Source: a virus. From it: a DNA stretch of 20,909 nucleotides. The DNA lies in the IMG/VR virus record IMGVR_UViG_3300007539_000285, positions 1-20,909 of that record; one strand, 5' to 3'. Positions within the stretch are counted from its first letter, which is position 1. The number at the start of each line of letters is the position of its first letter. The position numbers and the translations under genes were made by a program. The notes under the pieces were generated by a model. It saw only the letters and a list, made by a program, of their open reading frames with translations, did not search any database and was not told the origin of the DNA. This document shows positions 7,495 through 20,909 of this stretch, in pieces.

Positions 7495-7508
7495 TTTAAT
7501 TGAATTCG

Positions 7509-7582
7509 TACACCTGACAGGATTCGAACCTGTGACCGTCTGCTTAGAAGGCAGATGCTCTATCCAGCTGAGCTACAGGTGC
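7509..7582 (-). tRNA. tRNA-Arg (anticodon TCT)
   Basis: The minus strand folds as a complete 74-base cloverleaf: acceptor GCACCTG with CAGGTGT (six Watson-Crick pairs and one G-T), U8/A9, D stem GCTC/GAGC with a GG-containing loop, anticodon stem TCTGC/GCAGA with loop CTTCTAA, variable CGGTC, T stem ACAGG/CCTGT with loop TTCGAAT, and discriminator A at 7509. The anticodon TCT reads AGA. No CCA is encoded. It lies between the HNH-like gene and the 43-residue gene, inside what is probably one transcript, so processing would release it from the mRNA. AGA is a codon that phage tRNAs often supplement. Confidence 0.95.
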
Positions 7583-7856: not shown

Positions 7857-9008
7857 TTATCTAAATATGGTCACATGACCAGCCATATCAACAACTTTCC
7901 TTGATTCGAGGGAAGTTGCCTTGATGGTCCAGACATACACCCCATCAGGAACGTAGGTGTCAAGTTTATTTCCCAACCATATATCTGATGGTTCTACACT
8001 CCACCATACCAAACCACCCCATCTGTTGTACACTCGGCACTCCCAATCCAGCCAGCACTCACTAAGAGTAATTGGCCTCCAGTAGTCGTTGATGTTATCA
8101 TTGTTTGGGGTAAAAGTGTTAGGTACCTTGATGCATGGGTCGTTGCAATCAGGATCTTCAGGACCATAAATGCACTCCCCTTCTACACTGCAGTCGTCGC
8201 AGTAATTCAGGGCATCAAAGTCTAAGCATCCCTGATACACGCAACTCCCATCATCCTCGTTAGCGGTATCGTCATAGTTGTAGGCATTCTCATCTATACA
8301 ACCTGGGTACACGCAGCTTTGATCATCTATAGTGGCCTCTGGGTTGTAGTTAGCGGCTGCCTCATCAATGCACCCAGCATACACGCAGCTTCCATCACTA
8401 ATAGTAGCAAACTCGTCATAATTGTAGGCATTTGGATCAACACACCCATACACTACTGGCGGAGGCGGTGGATCGCACGAACCAGACAAAGAGAACTGAA
8501 TCCAGTTGTTGTATATGTCTTCATCTGGGTACGGGAATCCCCCCAAACCAGGCCCGCCAATCAAAGTCTCACTATCATTTATCTGCCAAATAGTAAGGAT
8601 AATGCATTCCTCAAAATACGACCCAATGGTCATTACGTTCTCCCAACAGTAAAGAGTCCCACTCCCAGCAAGCTCTGTATCCTCTATGATGTTAAATGTA
8701 ATCGTATCCCCAGCCTGCAGTATGTTGTCAGGACCTTCTCCAATATCAAATCCTGGAAAGTCGAGGGGGTACAGCAGATAGGCCCATTCGGCTCCAGCCG
8801 ATAGACACTGAAAAGGAGATGGGTCAAGTGGCGGGTTGAATGTCATTGCCAAAACAAACTCCCCAATGCTATCTGCCTCCGTGCCACACTGCCCACCGTT
8901 AATACCTATTGTAATGTCAGTTGAGATTGGATTGAATCCAATTATCTCCATGTCGCACTGACCCCAAGACATTAGCGGGATCAGGAACCAGATAAGTCTT
9001 TTTATCAT
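7857..9008 (-). CDS. Secreted repeat protein with T9SS type B sorting domain (383 aa)
   Basis: A signal peptide (MIKRLIWFLIPLMSWGQ) is followed by a beta-rich region (about 20-175), a Pro run, four 24-residue repeats (188-280) and a C-terminal domain (295-383). Each repeat follows GC-x-D-x-x-A-x-NY...DDGSCVY, a cysteine-containing unit frequent in secreted proteins of marine Bacteroidota. The C-terminal part has VPNTFTPNNDNINDYW, VYNRWGGLVW and PDGVYVWTIKA, the hallmark of the gliding motility-associated (CHU_C, type B) domain that targets proteins through the type IX secretion system. The gene overlaps the upstream metalloprotease by four bases (ATGA), so the two are coupled. The product should be exported to or beyond the outer membrane by the host, most likely an adhesin or surface factor (inference). 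Confidence 0.85.
   Translation of the reverse strand: MIKRLIWFLIPLMSWGQCDMEIIGFNPISTDITIGINGGQCGTEADSIGEFVLAMTFNPPLDPSPFQCLSAGAEWAYLLYPLDFPGFDIGEGPDNILQAGDTITFNIIEDTELAGSGTLYCWENVMTIGSYFEECIILTIWQINDSETLIGGPGLGGFPYPDEDIYNNWIQFSLSGSCDPPPPPVVYGCVDPNAYNYDEFATISDGSCVYAGCIDEAAANYNPEATIDDQSCVYPGCIDENAYNYDDTANEDDGSCVYQGCLDFDALNYCDDCSVEGECIYGPEDPDCNDPCIKVPNTFTPNNDNINDYWRPITLSECWLDWECRVYNRWGGLVWWSVEPSDIWLGNKLDTYVPDGVYVWTIKATSLESRKVVDMAGHVTIFR
8166..8447 (-). repeat. Four tandem 24-residue GC-D-NY-DDGSC coding repeats
   Basis: Residues 188-280 of the protein encoded at 7857-9008 contain four successive units beginning YGC, AGC, PGC and QGC. Each has a conserved Asp, Ala, Asn-Tyr and a Ser-Cys ending; the last unit is diverged, with extra cysteines (NYCDDCSVEGEC). 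The acidic DDGS segments could bind calcium, which is inference. Confidence 0.85.
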
Positions 9009-10918
9009 TGAACGAATATTTTTTTGGTTTCCTTATTGCACTTCTGAATGTAGATGCCTGGGGCCAACCCCTCTATTGGCCCTGGAACAATACGGCCAGA
9101 CATATCATAATATACAGGAATTCCAACATCACCATATCCAGAGCCATCCTGTTGCACCGCTTCTATGATTTCTGAAACCTGGAAGCTAGCCTCCGCAGTA
9201 ATCAGACAGTCGTTCTGACCGAAGTATGCCAAAAACTCAAGAAGGTCAAGAACGTTGACAATGCCGCTGCCGTCAAGATCGCCAACGCAATCTCCAACGC
9301 AGTTGTAGTCATTGATAAGTATAGCGACATCCTCCACACCAACCACACCATCATTATCGAAATCAGCAGGGCATGTGTTCGTCGATTCCGTCTCTACGCA
9401 GAACTCGAACACAAGCTCACCCCACTCCCCAGATACATCTACATCAAGCGGCTCACCGTTAATCCACATCGATATCTCACCACCGTAAGGGATACCATCA
9501 CCCCCAGCATCGTAGATAATGAAGTTGTAGCACCCATTAGGGAGACACGTCTCGTAACTCCTAGTAGTAATACCTGATGGCCAGTTCCCATCTTCGATGA
9601 CAGGGGTCTTGTCGCCCTGTGGAAGCAACACCCACTCTGTCTCTGCAGCAAAGAAGTCACTAGTAAAGTCCATCTCCCACAACGCCCCAGGCTCGTAGAC
9701 GACGCTACCGTAGGCGGTGTCGTTACCCGCGTACTGATCATTCCCAGAAAACAGCGTCACAGAGAAATCTCCCTGCAATGTCACACCTTCGAACAGCGCC
9801 TCATAGCTTTCCCCAAAAGCAATATCATGCAGCATGTAGTTATAAGACCCCGCATCACTCGTCAAAGTAACAGTAGCTGTAGGGATGGTGACTGGACCAA
9901 CCCCAGTAACAGTAACTGTGACGTCTTGTTCGGGCAGGCAAAACGGGGTGTTATAATCAACATTGGATACAGCTGCGTCGTAATCTACAGGAGGTACACA
10001 TGCAAAGTTGTTGTTCCATAAGTCATACCTCCCACCCAACAAACACTCATGCATGCGCTCTGCCTGTCCAGTGGTGTACATATCCCTACACTGCTCCCCA
10101 GTATAATCCATGTAATTCTTTATGAGAGCATCAGGACAATCTGGAAAACTGCAGAAGTTGTTCGTCGTTGTGGGCGGGGTATCACAAACCTTATCCCCCT
10201 GAGTCTCGCAGTTGGTCTCTGAAGTACACGAGAATGTGTTGGCAAACGTATGATCGATGGTCAAGTAGTGCCCAAGCTCATGCACAAACGTCTTCCCAAG
10301 GTTAAATGGGGAAACAACCATCTTGTTTGAAAGCATCACAACCCCATCTCTGCAGTCATTAGTGGGGCCTAGGTAAGCATATCCCTGAATACCCCCGCCA
10401 CCGTTATTACCCCCAATCTCCGTAACAATATAAATGTTAACGTACTTGTCTACATCCCAGCAAGCAATCTCCTTCATCTGCAAATCGTTCATCCCAGACT
10501 GAAGACTACTCGAAGCCACACCATCCTGCACATACGCTGAAATACCTGATAGGTCATGACGAGTAATTCCTGTTGTGGGATTCCCATCAGGATCACGCTG
10601 TGCCATGCAGAAGTCTATCTTCGTGTCTACCCCTTCCCCATCACCCACAGAGCCAGGAACCTTTCGGAACATATCGTTGGCCTCACCAAGCATCTCAATG
10701 ATCTGATCGTCAGTAATGTTTGCACCCTCGCCAATGGCTTGGCCAGTATGCATAATGTGAAACACTATGGGTAGCGTAACGATGTCTACATCTTCAAGGT
10801 TTGGGTCAACTCTGTCAAAACCCATGATTTTTGGGCGTGGCAGCAGGTCTGTGGCGCACTCTTGTGCATTGATGGCGCCAGAAAGGATGATGAAAAGCGA
10901 TAAAATAAGATTGCGCAT
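9005..10918 (-). CDS. Secreted M43 pappalysin-like metalloprotease with T9SS tail (637 aa)
   Basis: The start at 10918 gives a clean signal peptide (MRNLILSLFIILSGAINAQ); the longer frame would begin inside the promoter. The catalytic zinc motif is HELGHYLTIDH (213-223), followed by CDTPPTTT and CPD segments and the Met-turn NYMDYT (268-273), all typical of peptidase family M43. A beta-rich region follows (about 315-510), then two dockerin-like calcium repeats (DFDNDGVVGVED near 519 and DLDGSGIVNVLDLLEF near 547), then a short C-terminal sorting domain (DMSGRIVPG, LAPGIYIQ, KKIFVQ) of the type A T9SS family. It heads a two-gene operon with the type B cargo at 7857. Secreted proteolysis of host or environmental protein is the likely activity; its benefit to a phage is unknown. 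Confidence 0.9.
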   Translation of the reverse strand: MRNLILSLFIILSGAINAQECATDLLPRPKIMGFDRVDPNLEDVDIVTLPIVFHIMHTGQAIGEGANITDDQIIEMLGEANDMFRKVPGSVGDGEGVDTKIDFCMAQRDPDGNPTTGITRHDLSGISAYVQDGVASSSLQSGMNDLQMKEIACWDVDKYVNIYIVTEIGGNNGGGGIQGYAYLGPTNDCRDGVVMLSNKMVVSPFNLGKTFVHELGHYLTIDHTFANTFSCTSETNCETQGDKVCDTPPTTTNNFCSFPDCPDALIKNYMDYTGEQCRDMYTTGQAERMHECLLGGRYDLWNNNFACVPPVDYDAAVSNVDYNTPFCLPEQDVTVTVTGVGPVTIPTATVTLTSDAGSYNYMLHDIAFGESYEALFEGVTLQGDFSVTLFSGNDQYAGNDTAYGSVVYEPGALWEMDFTSDFFAAETEWVLLPQGDKTPVIEDGNWPSGITTRSYETCLPNGCYNFIIYDAGGDGIPYGGEISMWINGEPLDVDVSGEWGELVFEFCVETESTNTCPADFDNDGVVGVEDVAILINDYNCVGDCVGDLDGSGIVNVLDLLEFLAYFGQNDCLITAEASFQVSEIIEAVQQDGSGYGDVGIPVYYDMSGRIVPGPIEGLAPGIYIQKCNKETKKIFVQ

Positions 10919-10939
10919 AGTTTTTGGTTTGGTTCTATA

Positions 10940-10947
10940 CAAAGATA
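10940..10947 (-). promoter_or_regulatory. -7 box TATCTTTG before the metalloprotease operon
   Basis: The minus strand reads TTTGTATCTTTGTATAG, containing TATCTTTG, which matches TAnnTTTG. It ends 21 bases before the ATG at 10918. The cargo operon therefore appears to carry its own promoter, as independently expressed accessory genes in phages often do. Confidence 0.6.
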
Positions 10948-17066: not shown

Positions 17067-17812
17067 TATACTAGTCCTCTTGTGTTTCCTTTAATGTAGG
17101 AGTGTTGTCGTGTTGATCTTTTTAGTTTGGATCCCGTCGCATTCTGATTTGCCAGAAAGTTTAGCGTCCCCTGAGTGCCGCCAGTCTGAAACGCATTCTG
17201 CGCACCCTGCTGCTGCATCATTTGCATCATCATCTGCATCATCTGCGGATTAGACATCATTTGCTGCATCATGGCGTTAGCATCACCGCCCAGGCCTGGA
17301 ACTCCACTGCCACTCATAGGGATGTCTCCAGCTGCACTAGCAACAACATCCTGTACGCCTCCGCCTACCGCAGGGTTGGCACCTCCGCCGCCACCAAGTG
17401 ATGTAGCCAGTCCAGCGGCAGAGCTTACTACCGATTTTGCGATATCTCCCCTTTGAAGTTCCTGGCCTTCAGGGTCGTTACCCTCAGATACTTCTTGGGC
17501 CTCACCAGCCATGTATTTGCCAAAATCACCTGCACCCTGCGCAGCAAGACGAAAGTTTCCTGTAAGTGCACCGCCCAATACCTTTGCCCCAGCCAAGCCG
17601 CCCTCTGTAATGGCCCTGGTTCTCTCCCCCTTGATAGTATCACAGTACTTAAGTGTGTTCTTTTGTGACTCAGAAAGCGGTGCCCCTGACTCTTCAAGCT
17701 CCCTAAGCTGCTTACAATCCCCCTTATCGTACTCCTCCATGCCATAACGATCCATGTCGTCATAGCGTTCTTTAAAATTCAGGGCTTGACCCATGTTTTT
17801 GAGCAGTTCCAT
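17066..17812 (-). CDS. Gly/Ala- and Met-rich protein (248 aa), possible ejection or internal virion protein
   Basis: The N-terminal 65 residues are charged (GDCKQLRELEESGAPLSESQ and two Cys). The middle (about 70-180) is Gly/Ala-rich with hydrophobic stretches such as VVSSAAGLATSLGGGGG. Residues about 180-205 are an unusual Met/Gln run (AMMQQMMSNPQMMQMMMQMM). The end is basic (GSKLKRSTRQHSYIKGNT). Such low-complexity, Gly/Ala-rich proteins with amphipathic segments often are internal virion or DNA-ejection proteins, but that is inference. A promoter box lies five bases before the ATG; the stop shares a base with the next start. Confidence 0.6.
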   Translation of the reverse strand: MELLKNMGQALNFKERYDDMDRYGMEEYDKGDCKQLRELEESGAPLSESQKNTLKYCDTIKGERTRAITEGGLAGAKVLGGALTGNFRLAAQGAGDFGKYMAGEAQEVSEGNDPEGQELQRGDIAKSVVSSAAGLATSLGGGGGANPAVGGGVQDVVASAAGDIPMSGSGVPGLGGDANAMMQQMMSNPQMMQMMMQMMQQQGAQNAFQTGGTQGTLNFLANQNATGSKLKRSTRQHSYIKGNTRGLV

Positions 17813-19740: not shown

Positions 19741-19771
19741 TTGACATCGCTGTTTGATTTCCCTATCTTTG
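19741..19771 (+). promoter_or_regulatory. Complete Bacteroidota-type promoter, TTG-N20-TATCTTTG
   Basis: TTG (19741-19743) and TATCTTTG (19764-19771) are spaced by 20 bases, matching the TTG / TAnnTTTG pattern. The start of transcription should fall near 19777, about 45 bases before the ATG at 19821. This is the likely driver of the rightward GC-rich operon and the ribozyme. Confidence 0.7.
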
Positions 19772-19820
19772 GGGTCATCGGTTCGAAGGTCGAGCCGAGC
19801 AAACTTCAAACTTTTTACCC

Positions 19821-20474
19821 ATGTCTGCGAAGACCACCTACACCCCCACACACTGCCCCGAGACAGGGCGCAAGTTGACCCGTGCCGAACGCCGTGAGGC
19901 GAACAAGGCCAAGTTCGCACAGGAGCAAGCGGCCAAGCGCAAGAGCGCGAAGCCGAAGGCGACCAAGCGCAAGGCCACGCCCAAAGCCAAAGCCACGACT
20001 GCGAAGCAGTCCCGTGCGAGCGTGCTGTGCAAGGAGTACGGGCTGACGATGGAGCAGATGTTCGACATCATGGATGCCTGTCAGACGGCCAACACGTACA
20101 CACCCGTGGACGTGCAGGAGGACGACACTCCTCCCGCACCCAAGCGCACGAAGGCCAAGCGCAAGACCAAGAACGACAAGTTGGAGGCACAGGCACAACG
20201 CCTGAGCAACCGAGCGAGCGCGAAGCGCAACGTGCGAAAGACCGAGGTTGTGTGCGACAACAAGCCCACGAAGGCATCGCCATTCGGCACACGCACGGAG
20301 GTTGACGCACCTGCGCCCAAGCCCAAAGCGCAACGTCCTGCGAACTACACGCCACCAACCCCATTCGAGGTCATGAAGGCCAATGGGTACACGGACATCA
20401 TGGATATGTTGCGAGCAGACGCGATGAACCGCGACCTGGGCGAGGACGGCATCACTGCTGACGACATCTTGTGA
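19821..20474 (+). CDS. Lys/Ala-rich basic protein (217 aa), histone-H1-like composition
   Basis: The N-terminal 75 residues are a basic, disordered-looking tract (LTRAERREANKAKFAQEQAA, then repeated KPKAT / KRKAT units), similar in composition to histone H1-like tails. A short helical unit follows (CKEYGLTMEQMFDIMDAC), then a second basic tract (APKRTKAKRKTKNDKL), and a C-terminal helical unit (FEVMKANGYTDIMDMLRADA) ending in an acidic GEDGITADDIL. The two helical units share G-[LY]-T-x-x-[QI]-M-x-[DI]-[IM], possibly an internal repeat. DNA or RNA binding is likely. The base composition (38 of 60 G or C at 19861-19920) is far above that of the rest. CAAACTTCAAA precedes the start by 10 bases. 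Confidence 0.7.
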   Translation: MSAKTTYTPTHCPETGRKLTRAERREANKAKFAQEQAAKRKSAKPKATKRKATPKAKATTAKQSRASVLCKEYGLTMEQMFDIMDACQTANTYTPVDVQEDDTPPAPKRTKAKRKTKNDKLEAQAQRLSNRASAKRNVRKTEVVCDNKPTKASPFGTRTEVDAPAPKPKAQRPANYTPPTPFEVMKANGYTDIMDMLRADAMNRDLGEDGITADDIL

Positions 20475-20514: not shown

Positions 20515-20536
20515 GGGGAGGCAACTCCGTCTCCCC
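20515..20536 (+). other. Hairpin in the leader of the 56-residue gene
   Basis: GGGGAG (20515-20520) can pair with CTCCCC (20531-20536) around a ten-base loop, 17 bases before the ATG at 20554. There is no T run, so it is not a standard terminator; it may shape the mRNA between the two genes. Confidence 0.45.
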
Positions 20537-20553
20537 ACAAACTTCATACACCC

Positions 20554-20724
20554 ATGCCCAACAAAGCATCAACCCCCAACGAGGCGCGTCAAGAGCGCGT
20601 GAAGGCCTTGACTCAACTCCTCGACTTCGGCTTCCCTGTCGAGTACACGCTCACGCAGGTAGCCAATCACTTCGGAGACGAGGAACTGACTCTCGCTGAC
20701 CTGATTGGAACGAAGAGCGCATGA
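20554..20724 (+). CDS. Small protein (56 aa), unknown function
   Basis: The ATG at 20554 opens a 56-residue frame: MPNKASTPNEARQERVKALT, then QLLDFGFPVEYTLTQVANHF and GDEELTLADLIGTKSA. It is helical with a small hydrophobic core and no cysteines. It shares the GC-rich codon choice of the 217-residue gene upstream and is in the same orientation, 79 bases further on. CAAACTTCATA lies five bases before the start, close to the leader motif of the preceding gene. The TERM-like end with DLIGTKSA is followed 15 bases later by the hammerhead ribozyme. No family recognised. Confidence 0.65.
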   Translation: MPNKASTPNEARQERVKALTQLLDFGFPVEYTLTQVANHFGDEELTLADLIGTKSA

Positions 20725-20738
20725 GCAAGTGACGAACA

Positions 20739-20788
20739 GGCACACTGACGAGTCCTGATTGGACGAAACCCCTTCGGGGGTCTGTGTC
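20739..20788 (+). ncRNA. Type I hammerhead self-cleaving ribozyme
   Basis: All core positions of the hammerhead are present. Stem I is GGCACA (20739-20744) with TGTGTC (20783-20788), six pairs including one G-U. Then CTGACGA (20745-20751; C3 U4 G5 A6 N7 G8 A9). Stem II is GTCC/GGAC (20752-20755, 20761-20764) with loop TGATT. Then GAA (20765-20767; G12 A13 A14). Stem III is ACCCC/GGGGT (20768-20772, 20777-20781) closed by a C(TTCG)G tetraloop, giving A15.1-U16.1. H17 is C20782, so the cleavage triplet is GTC and cleavage falls between 20782 and 20783. With stem I open it is type I. It lies between a 56-residue gene and a tRNA-like element, so it should cut their joint transcript. Confidence 0.92.
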
Positions 20789-20819
20789 AAAGCGAACGTG
20801 GCTTTGAGGGGCATAGCCC
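20788..20819 (+). other. Two hairpins between ribozyme and tRNA-like element
   Basis: CAAAGC/GCTTTG (20788-20793, 20801-20806) with a seven-base loop, and GGGC/GCCC (20809-20812, 20816-20819) with loop ATA, lie directly downstream of the cleavage site. They would form the 5' leader of the tRNA-like element after self-cleavage. Confidence 0.55.
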
Positions 20820-20822
20820 GCA

Positions 20823-20890
20823 AGGTGTAATGGTGTAACAGGATAGCACGCCACTATGTGGAGGTGCGGGTTCGAATCCCGCTACATCTC
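20823..20890 (+). ncRNA. tRNA-like element with collapsed anticodon arm
   Basis: Acceptor AGGTGTA (20823-20829) pairs with TACATCT (20883-20889), with one G-U; the discriminator is C. The D arm is good: GTGT/GCAC around a loop with GG and flanking A14/A21-like bases. The T arm is perfect: GCGGG/CCCGC with loop TTCGAAT. The anticodon region is only CCAC-TAT-GTGG (20851-20861), a four-pair stem with a three-base loop, so no normal seven-base anticodon loop exists. There is one extra A after the acceptor. At 68 bases it is five to six short of a standard tRNA. It could be a deleted tRNA gene, a non-decoding tRNA mimic for RNA processing, or an assembly deletion. Confidence 0.65.
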
Positions 20891-20898
20891 AAATTTGT

Positions 20899-20909
20899 CA
20901 AACTTCAAA
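20899..20909 (+). repeat. Third copy of the CAAACTTCAAA leader motif, at the window edge
   Basis: CAAACTTCAAA here is identical to 19800-19810 and differs by one base from 20538-20548 (CAAACTTCATA). The other two copies lie 10 and 5 bases before start codons, so a start codon is expected within about 5-15 bases beyond the window end. Confidence 0.5.

Follow-up and report, generated by a model that had tools for sequence, protein, structure and literature searches.

In prophages and phages, hammerhead ribozymes can occur in clusters, several of them bordering a single gene or a short block of genes, and it has been proposed that they process phage polycistronic RNA to operon- or gene-length mRNA; the Agrobacterium triple cleaves both in vitro and in E. 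coli (Perreault 2011, PMC3088659). HHphage of haloviruses HF1 and HF2 is located 13 nt before a start codon in an early polycistronic transcript, and a mapped transcript 5' end lies within 3 nt of its cleavage site (PMC3088659). In 2017, the function of hammerheads in bacteria and phages was described as an open question (PMC6155905). The initial annotation of the locus analysed here, which regarded such ribozymes as usually without known purpose, understated a literature in which message processing had already been put forward.

The window, i.e., the whole stretch of DNA analysed, corresponds to a linear virus record in IMG/VR, 20909 bases long. Judging by its terminase, it is a flavobacterial podovirus, because the nearest terminases in the phage collection belong to a Manatee Spring podovirus (50% identity), Elemovirus phages of Flavobacterium (41%), and Cellulophaga phages (36-37%). 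The left 19 kb carries mostly leftward structural genes (terminase, PHROG 6681; portal, PHROG 6547; endolysin), and at about 19.8 kb a rightward operon begins with genes for proteins of 217 and 56 amino acids; its layout suggests that this operon is probably early. We consider it likely, from sequence evidence, that an active type I hammerhead serves here as an intercistronic processing element of this divergent operon. The ribozyme sequence, its covariation, its position, the leader, and the sharing of one slot by different elements are all seen directly.

During synthesis of the polycistronic RNA, the hammerhead would fold and cut at 20782/20783, leaving the upstream mRNA (217- and 56-aa genes) with the ribozyme structure and a 2',3'-cyclic phosphate at its 3' end, whereas the downstream RNA would start with a 5'-OH UGUGUC. 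In most relatives, the cut would provide the following cistron with a short leader resembling that left by a promoter. The same slot in the same operons is taken elsewhere by promoters, by tRNA-like elements, or by long hairpins that are probable RNase III sites. At the window copy, a tRNA-like element lies between cut and leader, so cleavage would also free its 5' side.

Sequence and Architecture of the Hammerhead

At 20739-20788, the core CUGANGA...GAAA...UH is present in the correct order and is surrounded by three stems, of which stem I is open and stems II and III are capped by loops (Table 1). It is the only type I hammerhead that the descriptor finds on either strand of the window. Direct reading, the descriptor, and covariance model R1 all bear out the initial annotation of all core bases, three stems, and a UUCG loop; thus, it is confirmed that this segment encodes a complete type I hammerhead ribozyme, predicted to self-cleave. 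The cleavage site placed earlier at 20782/20783 agrees with that predicted from direct reading.

A covariance-model search had been suggested as a check, and its outcome is divided. RF00163 (Hammerhead_1) gives 14.4 bits at 20739-20788, below its gathering cut-off of 34, and RF03152 (RAGATH-1), the best Rfam score, gives 23.0 bits against a cut-off of 56.3, whereas the phage-hammerhead model R1 gives 68.3 bits (E 3e-16, unfiltered), with 8.6 bits for the runner-up place in the window. A gathering threshold is a curated cut-off and no biochemical definition of a hammerhead. At gathering, RF00163 and RF03152 report none of the hammerheads in six hammerhead-rich loci (L123, L084, L137, L116, L124, and L100), and one phage operon with eight perfect hammerheads in series is among the loci missed. 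Because rows of other perfect hammerheads are also passed over, the sub-threshold score is a limit of the Rfam models. R1 was therefore built, from 20 hammerheads with other stem I sequences and with the window's close group left out. As the Rfam thresholds hide a whole class, annotated genomes probably contain more phage hammerheads than current counts suggest.

The low Rfam scores would suit a chance match or an inactive look-alike. However, 200 dinucleotide-shuffled windows yielded zero hammerhead matches, loose stem-length settings included, the independent model separates the site widely from the next one, and the junction is conserved in relatives, which makes such an origin extremely improbable. 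The minimum-energy fold of 55 nt at the site is only 1.55 SD better than that of shuffles and was set aside as evidence, and folding of 131 nt gives a minimum-energy structure without stem I that lies up to 6.3 kcal/mol below the hammerhead fold. Hammerheads generally fold co-transcriptionally.

Table 1. Coordinates of the hammerhead, its parts, and neighbouring features in the window
Feature	Position	Strand	Details
Promoter-like element TTGAC-N18-TATCTTTG	19741..19771	+	Belongs to the rightward operon; Bacteroidota type, by eye; same place in L122, L124
Leader element AAACTTCA	19801..19808	+	20 nt before ATG of 217-aa gene
Gene for 217-aa Lys/Arg-rich protein	19821..20474	+	First gene of rightward operon; L122-L124 homologues 73-75% identical
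Hairpin GGGGAG...CTCCCC	20515..20536	+	Adjoins next leader upstream; slot of hammerhead in other junctions
Leader element AAACTTCA	20539..20546	+	Before 56-aa gene
Gene for 56-aa protein	20554..20724	+	Directly upstream of ribozyme
Putative tertiary-contact signature	A 20738, A 20789	+	Flank stem I, with loop II UGAUU; UNANU class
Type I hammerhead ribozyme	20739..20788	+	Direct reading, descriptor, covariance model R1, covariation in 59 relatives
Stem I	20739-20744 / 20783-20788	+	GGCACA / UGUGUC; 6 pairs, one G-U
Core CUGACGA	20745-20751	+	Direct reading
Stem II	20752-20755 / 20761-20764	+	GUCC / GGAC; loop UGAUU 20756-20760
G12 A13 A14	20765-20767	+	Direct reading
A15.1 paired with U16.1	20768, 20781	+	Direct reading
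Stem III	20768-20772 / 20777-20781		CCCC 20769-20772 / GGGG 20777-20780; loop UUCG
H17 (C) and predicted cut	20782; 20782/20783	+	
Hairpin CAAAGC-GAACGTG-GCTTTG, then GAGGGGCATAGCCCGCA	20788..20822	+	Conserved 5' extension of tRNA-like element (four-phage alignment)
tRNA-like element without anticodon loop	20823..20889	+	Acceptor AGGTGTA/TACATCT, T arm GCGGGTTCGAATCCCGC
Leader element AAACTTCA	20900..20907	+	Contig ends 2 nt later, before expected ATG; ATG present in L074

Conservation among Relatives

A DNA similarity search with the ribozyme region gave no match in the phage collection, and a pattern search of genome contigs (host) gave 16 matches, none of them a complete type I hammerhead; the two that were inspected (L164 and L177) resemble coding sequence. 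In 59 relatives whose stems I and II have 6 and 4 bp and whose loop II has 5 nt, a set in which full pairing was partly selected for, 12 of the 15 pairs vary on both sides (186 cells); the covariation score reaches 0.610, compared with 0.022 to 0.062 for slid-partner controls. Pairing of stems I and III was unselected in the 130 sequences that were retrieved with only the core and stem II as pattern, among which 92 are complete type I and 23 are type III hammerheads; shuffled flanks of the same sequences lead one to expect 0.1 and 1.1, respectively.

Core and stems are intact in all 40 R1 matches, which come from 28 related loci; this figure is to be read with the fact that most comparison loci were retrieved by intact-core patterns, so that intactness and pairing are partly selected for. 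The copy number, which ranges from 1 to 4 among close relatives, the shifting positions, and the varying genes found beside prophage hammerheads (Perreault 2011, PMC3088659) would fit a neutral or selfish passenger that spreads among phage intergenic regions without serving the phage. Nonetheless, the intact matches, the compensatory changes, and the strict start-codon spacing with use of the same leader (see below) render this reading very unlikely. At about 4260-4305 of L053, a second hammerhead core, which lacks U16.1, directly follows an intact one and is possibly a decaying copy.

Hammerheads with a 5-nt loop II share the pattern UNANU, and As flank stem I in 76/79 and 75/79 of them, compared with only 8/25 and 5/25 in the 4-nt class. 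The window, with UGAUU, A20738, and A20789, conforms to the former class, and this combination may reflect the contact between loop II and stem I that fast hammerheads need.

Position between Genes

Among 156 different viral hammerheads whose flanks were long enough, 77% have a frame of 40 codons or more, opened by ATG, that starts 8-60 nt past the cut; the figure is 28% at random sites and 13.5% on the opposite strand. The cut-to-start distance peaks sharply at 25-27 nt. The viral contigs are mutually related, so that percentages over the hammerhead set are not independent counts. A stop codon of the upstream gene falls within -40 to +30 of C3 in 79% of hammerheads versus 25% of random sites. 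It lies inside the ribozyme in 87/168 and coincides with the core catalytic UGA in 29 (17%); by comparison, 10.7% of other CTGANGA sites end an ORF. In one phage locus (L084), 8 hammerheads occur in about 6 kb, before nearly every gene, with Shine-Dalgarno-like leaders instead of AAACUUC.

Three phages of 64-65 kb (L122-L124) were reached through homology of the 217-aa protein, which itself has no match in Pfam and PHROG searches. The hammerhead lies 3' of the 56/59-aa gene in all four phages (the window, L122, L123, and L124) despite the differing next cistron, which is a tRNA-like element in the window, a 40-aa gene in L122 and L124, and a 58-aa gene in L123. L123 has four hammerheads in series between genes, and L122 and L124 have one each; in L122, the stop codon of the homologue of the 56-aa gene is the ribozyme's own UGA. 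The element thus sits between co-directional genes, of which the upstream one is seen in the window and the downstream one, beyond the end of this contig, in L122-L124 and L074.

Such a location, always after the end of a gene and frequently overlapped by its stop codon, might mean that the ribozyme chiefly makes a protected 3' end (hammerhead structure plus cyclic phosphate) that stabilises the upstream mRNA; the chemistry of the cleavage products is established knowledge. However, the spacing between the cut and the next AUG and leader varies less than that to the upstream stop, and long hairpins and promoters substitute for the ribozyme before the same leader, which makes 3'-end protection an unlikely main purpose.

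A Common Leader and Its Proposed Alternative 5'-End Makers

Flavobacterial phages of this group carry a standard leader, AAACUUCA, behind the cut, 19-21 nt ahead of the AUG. The cut and then UC-AAACUUCAA...AUG were found for 31 hammerheads in 24 loci, and in most relatives the new 5' end lies 6 nt before the leader and 25-27 nt before the next AUG. The window copy departs from this usual geometry because the tRNA-like element separates cut from leader. The word AAACTTCA occurs 144 times in 23 related loci, compared with about 7 for the shuffled word, and 105 copies precede an ORF start; its spacing to ATG is 19-21 nt in 22/25 hammerhead-made leaders and in 49/72 others.

Leaders without a hammerhead are preceded by promoter-like TAnnTTTG boxes, T arms of tRNA-like elements, or long hairpins, and a stem score of at least 11 in the 90 nt before the leader is reached by 47% of them versus 12.7% of random stretches. 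Long near-perfect hairpins, e.g., GAGAGUGUUAGUAUAUAUACUCUCUCUGAACGUAGUGAAGAGAGUAUAUAUACAACACCUCUC, stand at gene junctions upstream of AAACTTC leaders in L126, L130, L064, L144, L149, L150, and others; these hairpins are probable RNase III sites. The copies of AAACTTCA at window positions 19801, 20539, and 20900 and in the 23 related loci are candidate translation start elements, perhaps for hosts without Shine-Dalgarno use, and the leader may recruit ribosomes or otherwise act in translation. A mere transcription-start sequence was considered for AAACTTC and rejected, since it apparently also follows hammerheads at junctions without a promoter.

We conclude that a 5' end before this one leader can be made in four alternative ways: by a hammerhead, a hairpin, a promoter, or a tRNA-like element. 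Because leader and slot are common to all four, the ribozyme looks like one of several interchangeable intercistronic cutters. One concrete task, severing messages at gene junctions, is indicated by the constant cut-to-start distance, by the common leader, and by the interchange with hairpins.

tRNA-Like Element and tRNA Junctions

Downstream of the cut, the window contains, in this order, UGUGUC, a 6-bp hairpin, GAGGGGCAUAGCCCGCA, the tRNA-like element, the AAACUUCA leader, and the contig end. The tRNA-like element noted previously is real by score (RF00005, 36.9 bits; cut-off, 29). A normal tRNA was rejected for this element, which ARAGORN misses in the window and which lacks an anticodon loop: the anticodon arm has 4 bp and a loop of 3 nt, where an anticodon loop would have 7 nt, and that of L074 has a GAAA-containing loop. 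The tRNA-like fold is supported because the acceptor pair next to the D arm covaries (A-U, G-C, and U-A in three types). Four phages carry the element (window 20788-20889; L074 7510-7637, minus strand; L132 2921-3024; L162 12570-12674, minus strand), with the 5' extension of a 6-bp hairpin with a 7-nt loop and then GAGGGGCATAGCCCGCA.

Elsewhere, in other phages, at least nine hammerhead/tRNA junctions were observed in which the cut falls exactly at nucleotide 1 of tRNA-Tyr(GTA), the 3' strand of stem I being the 5' acceptor strand (L089:8394+, L093:6872+ (=L112), L094:6478+ and 6628+, L179, L205, L221, L232:2314+, and L233). All tRNA neighbours found are tRNA-Tyr, although L089, L093, and L094 lie in clusters of 18-22 tRNAs. 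This arrangement suggests that hammerheads make the 5' ends of these tRNAs in place of RNase P.

It might be argued that the window copy mainly releases the downstream structured RNA (5' hairpin, GAGGGGCAUAGCCCGCA, and tRNA-like element) with an exact 5' end, mRNA processing being incidental. The exact cuts at tRNA-Tyr would agree with this, as would L074, a different phage with the same order of hammerhead, hairpin, GAGGGGCATAGCCCGCA, and tRNA-like element, in which the next gene is visible. However, L132 and L162 carry the same RNA element with no hammerhead just upstream, yet keep the UGUGUC start, and nearly all other hammerheads of the group stand in front of genes without a tRNA-like element; release of this RNA as the main task is therefore somewhat unlikely. 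The window copy probably also frees the tRNA-like RNA, judging from the order of elements. The separation of the upstream mRNA from the downstream RNA that was envisaged at the outset fits these observations, whereas the two points stressed then, the tRNA-like RNA and the upstream 3' end, are probably of secondary importance. The general role is more likely to divide a polycistronic message into cistrons, each headed by a defined 5' leader, because in nearly all relatives, which lack a tRNA-like element, the ribozyme lies 25-27 nt before the next start, at the leader. Tentatively, one may go further: hammerheads may be the standard 5'-end generator of a large class of phages, replacing promoters, RNase III sites, and tRNA punctuation before a uniform leader so that each cistron becomes its own short-leader 5'-OH mRNA, and also making the 5' end of phage tRNA-Tyr instead of RNase P. 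This broader proposal is quite possible, but we would not yet favour it.

Other Features of the Window

Between the endolysin and the terminase (7857-10942, minus strand), the window encodes two proteins that are unusual cargo for a structural module, a secreted metallopeptidase of the M43 type and one bearing a type IX secretion (CHU_C) signal, and a tRNA-Arg (TCT) lies within the structural gene block (7508-7582, minus strand). At 19801-20400, where the rightward operon starts, GC rises from about 47% to 61%. This jump is probably not an assembly chimera, because the homologous genes of L122-L124 have the same codon style.

A Cultured Relative

The same element is present in a cultured pair, Flavobacterium phage elemo on Flavobacterium sp. 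BAL314, so its role is directly testable. The hammerhead of Flavobacterium phage elemoA 7-9A (17289-17348, minus strand; 51.5 bits with R1) has an AAACUUU leader and lies 28 nt before the AUG of gp69. Its stem III contains one mismatch, and it was consequently missed by the descriptor and found by the covariance model. The region is 95-100% conserved in 68 records, which derive from one host strain. On the opposite strand, the annotated elemoA gp68 (NC_055852.1, 17275-17382, plus strand) overlaps the hammerhead and is probably not a genuine gene. An R1 search of the related phages MW202828, phi46:3, phi40:1, and Gundel_1 gave no match; because some related phages are without one, the hammerhead is not essential to the wider phage group.

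Comparison with Known Systems

In the mostly open-access literature covered, we did not find fixed spacing, a common leader, exchange with hairpins or tRNA-like elements, or cutting at nucleotide 1 of tRNA-Tyr. The clusters of Perreault 2011 resemble the present loci in having several hammerheads between genes and a proposed processing role, which is here deduced from sequence. However, the hammerheads described here have a fixed position relative to the start codon, one leader motif, and a slot common with hairpins and tRNA-like elements, and they occur within the divergent operon of one group of flavobacterial podoviruses. HHphage of HF1/HF2 belongs to archaeal viruses and is a single copy with a variant core, whereas here a canonical type I core occurs in many copies with a leader motif. 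The theta ribozymes of gut phages are likewise small self-cleaving ribozymes beside phage tRNAs, but they have an HDV-like fold and lie at tRNA 3' ends (Kienbeck et al. 2024, PMC10879173), in contrast to a hammerhead upstream of a tRNA-like element or, elsewhere, at the 5' end of tRNA-Tyr.

RAGATH-1 (RF03152) has a very short stem II, whereas stem II is here a full 4 bp, and the locus falls outside that family by score as well as by stem II. In phage T7, polycistronic early mRNA is cut between genes at intercistronic RNase III sites. Cutting in T7 depends on a protein, whereas here the RNA is predicted to cut itself, with RNase III-like hairpins occupying the same slot in relatives.
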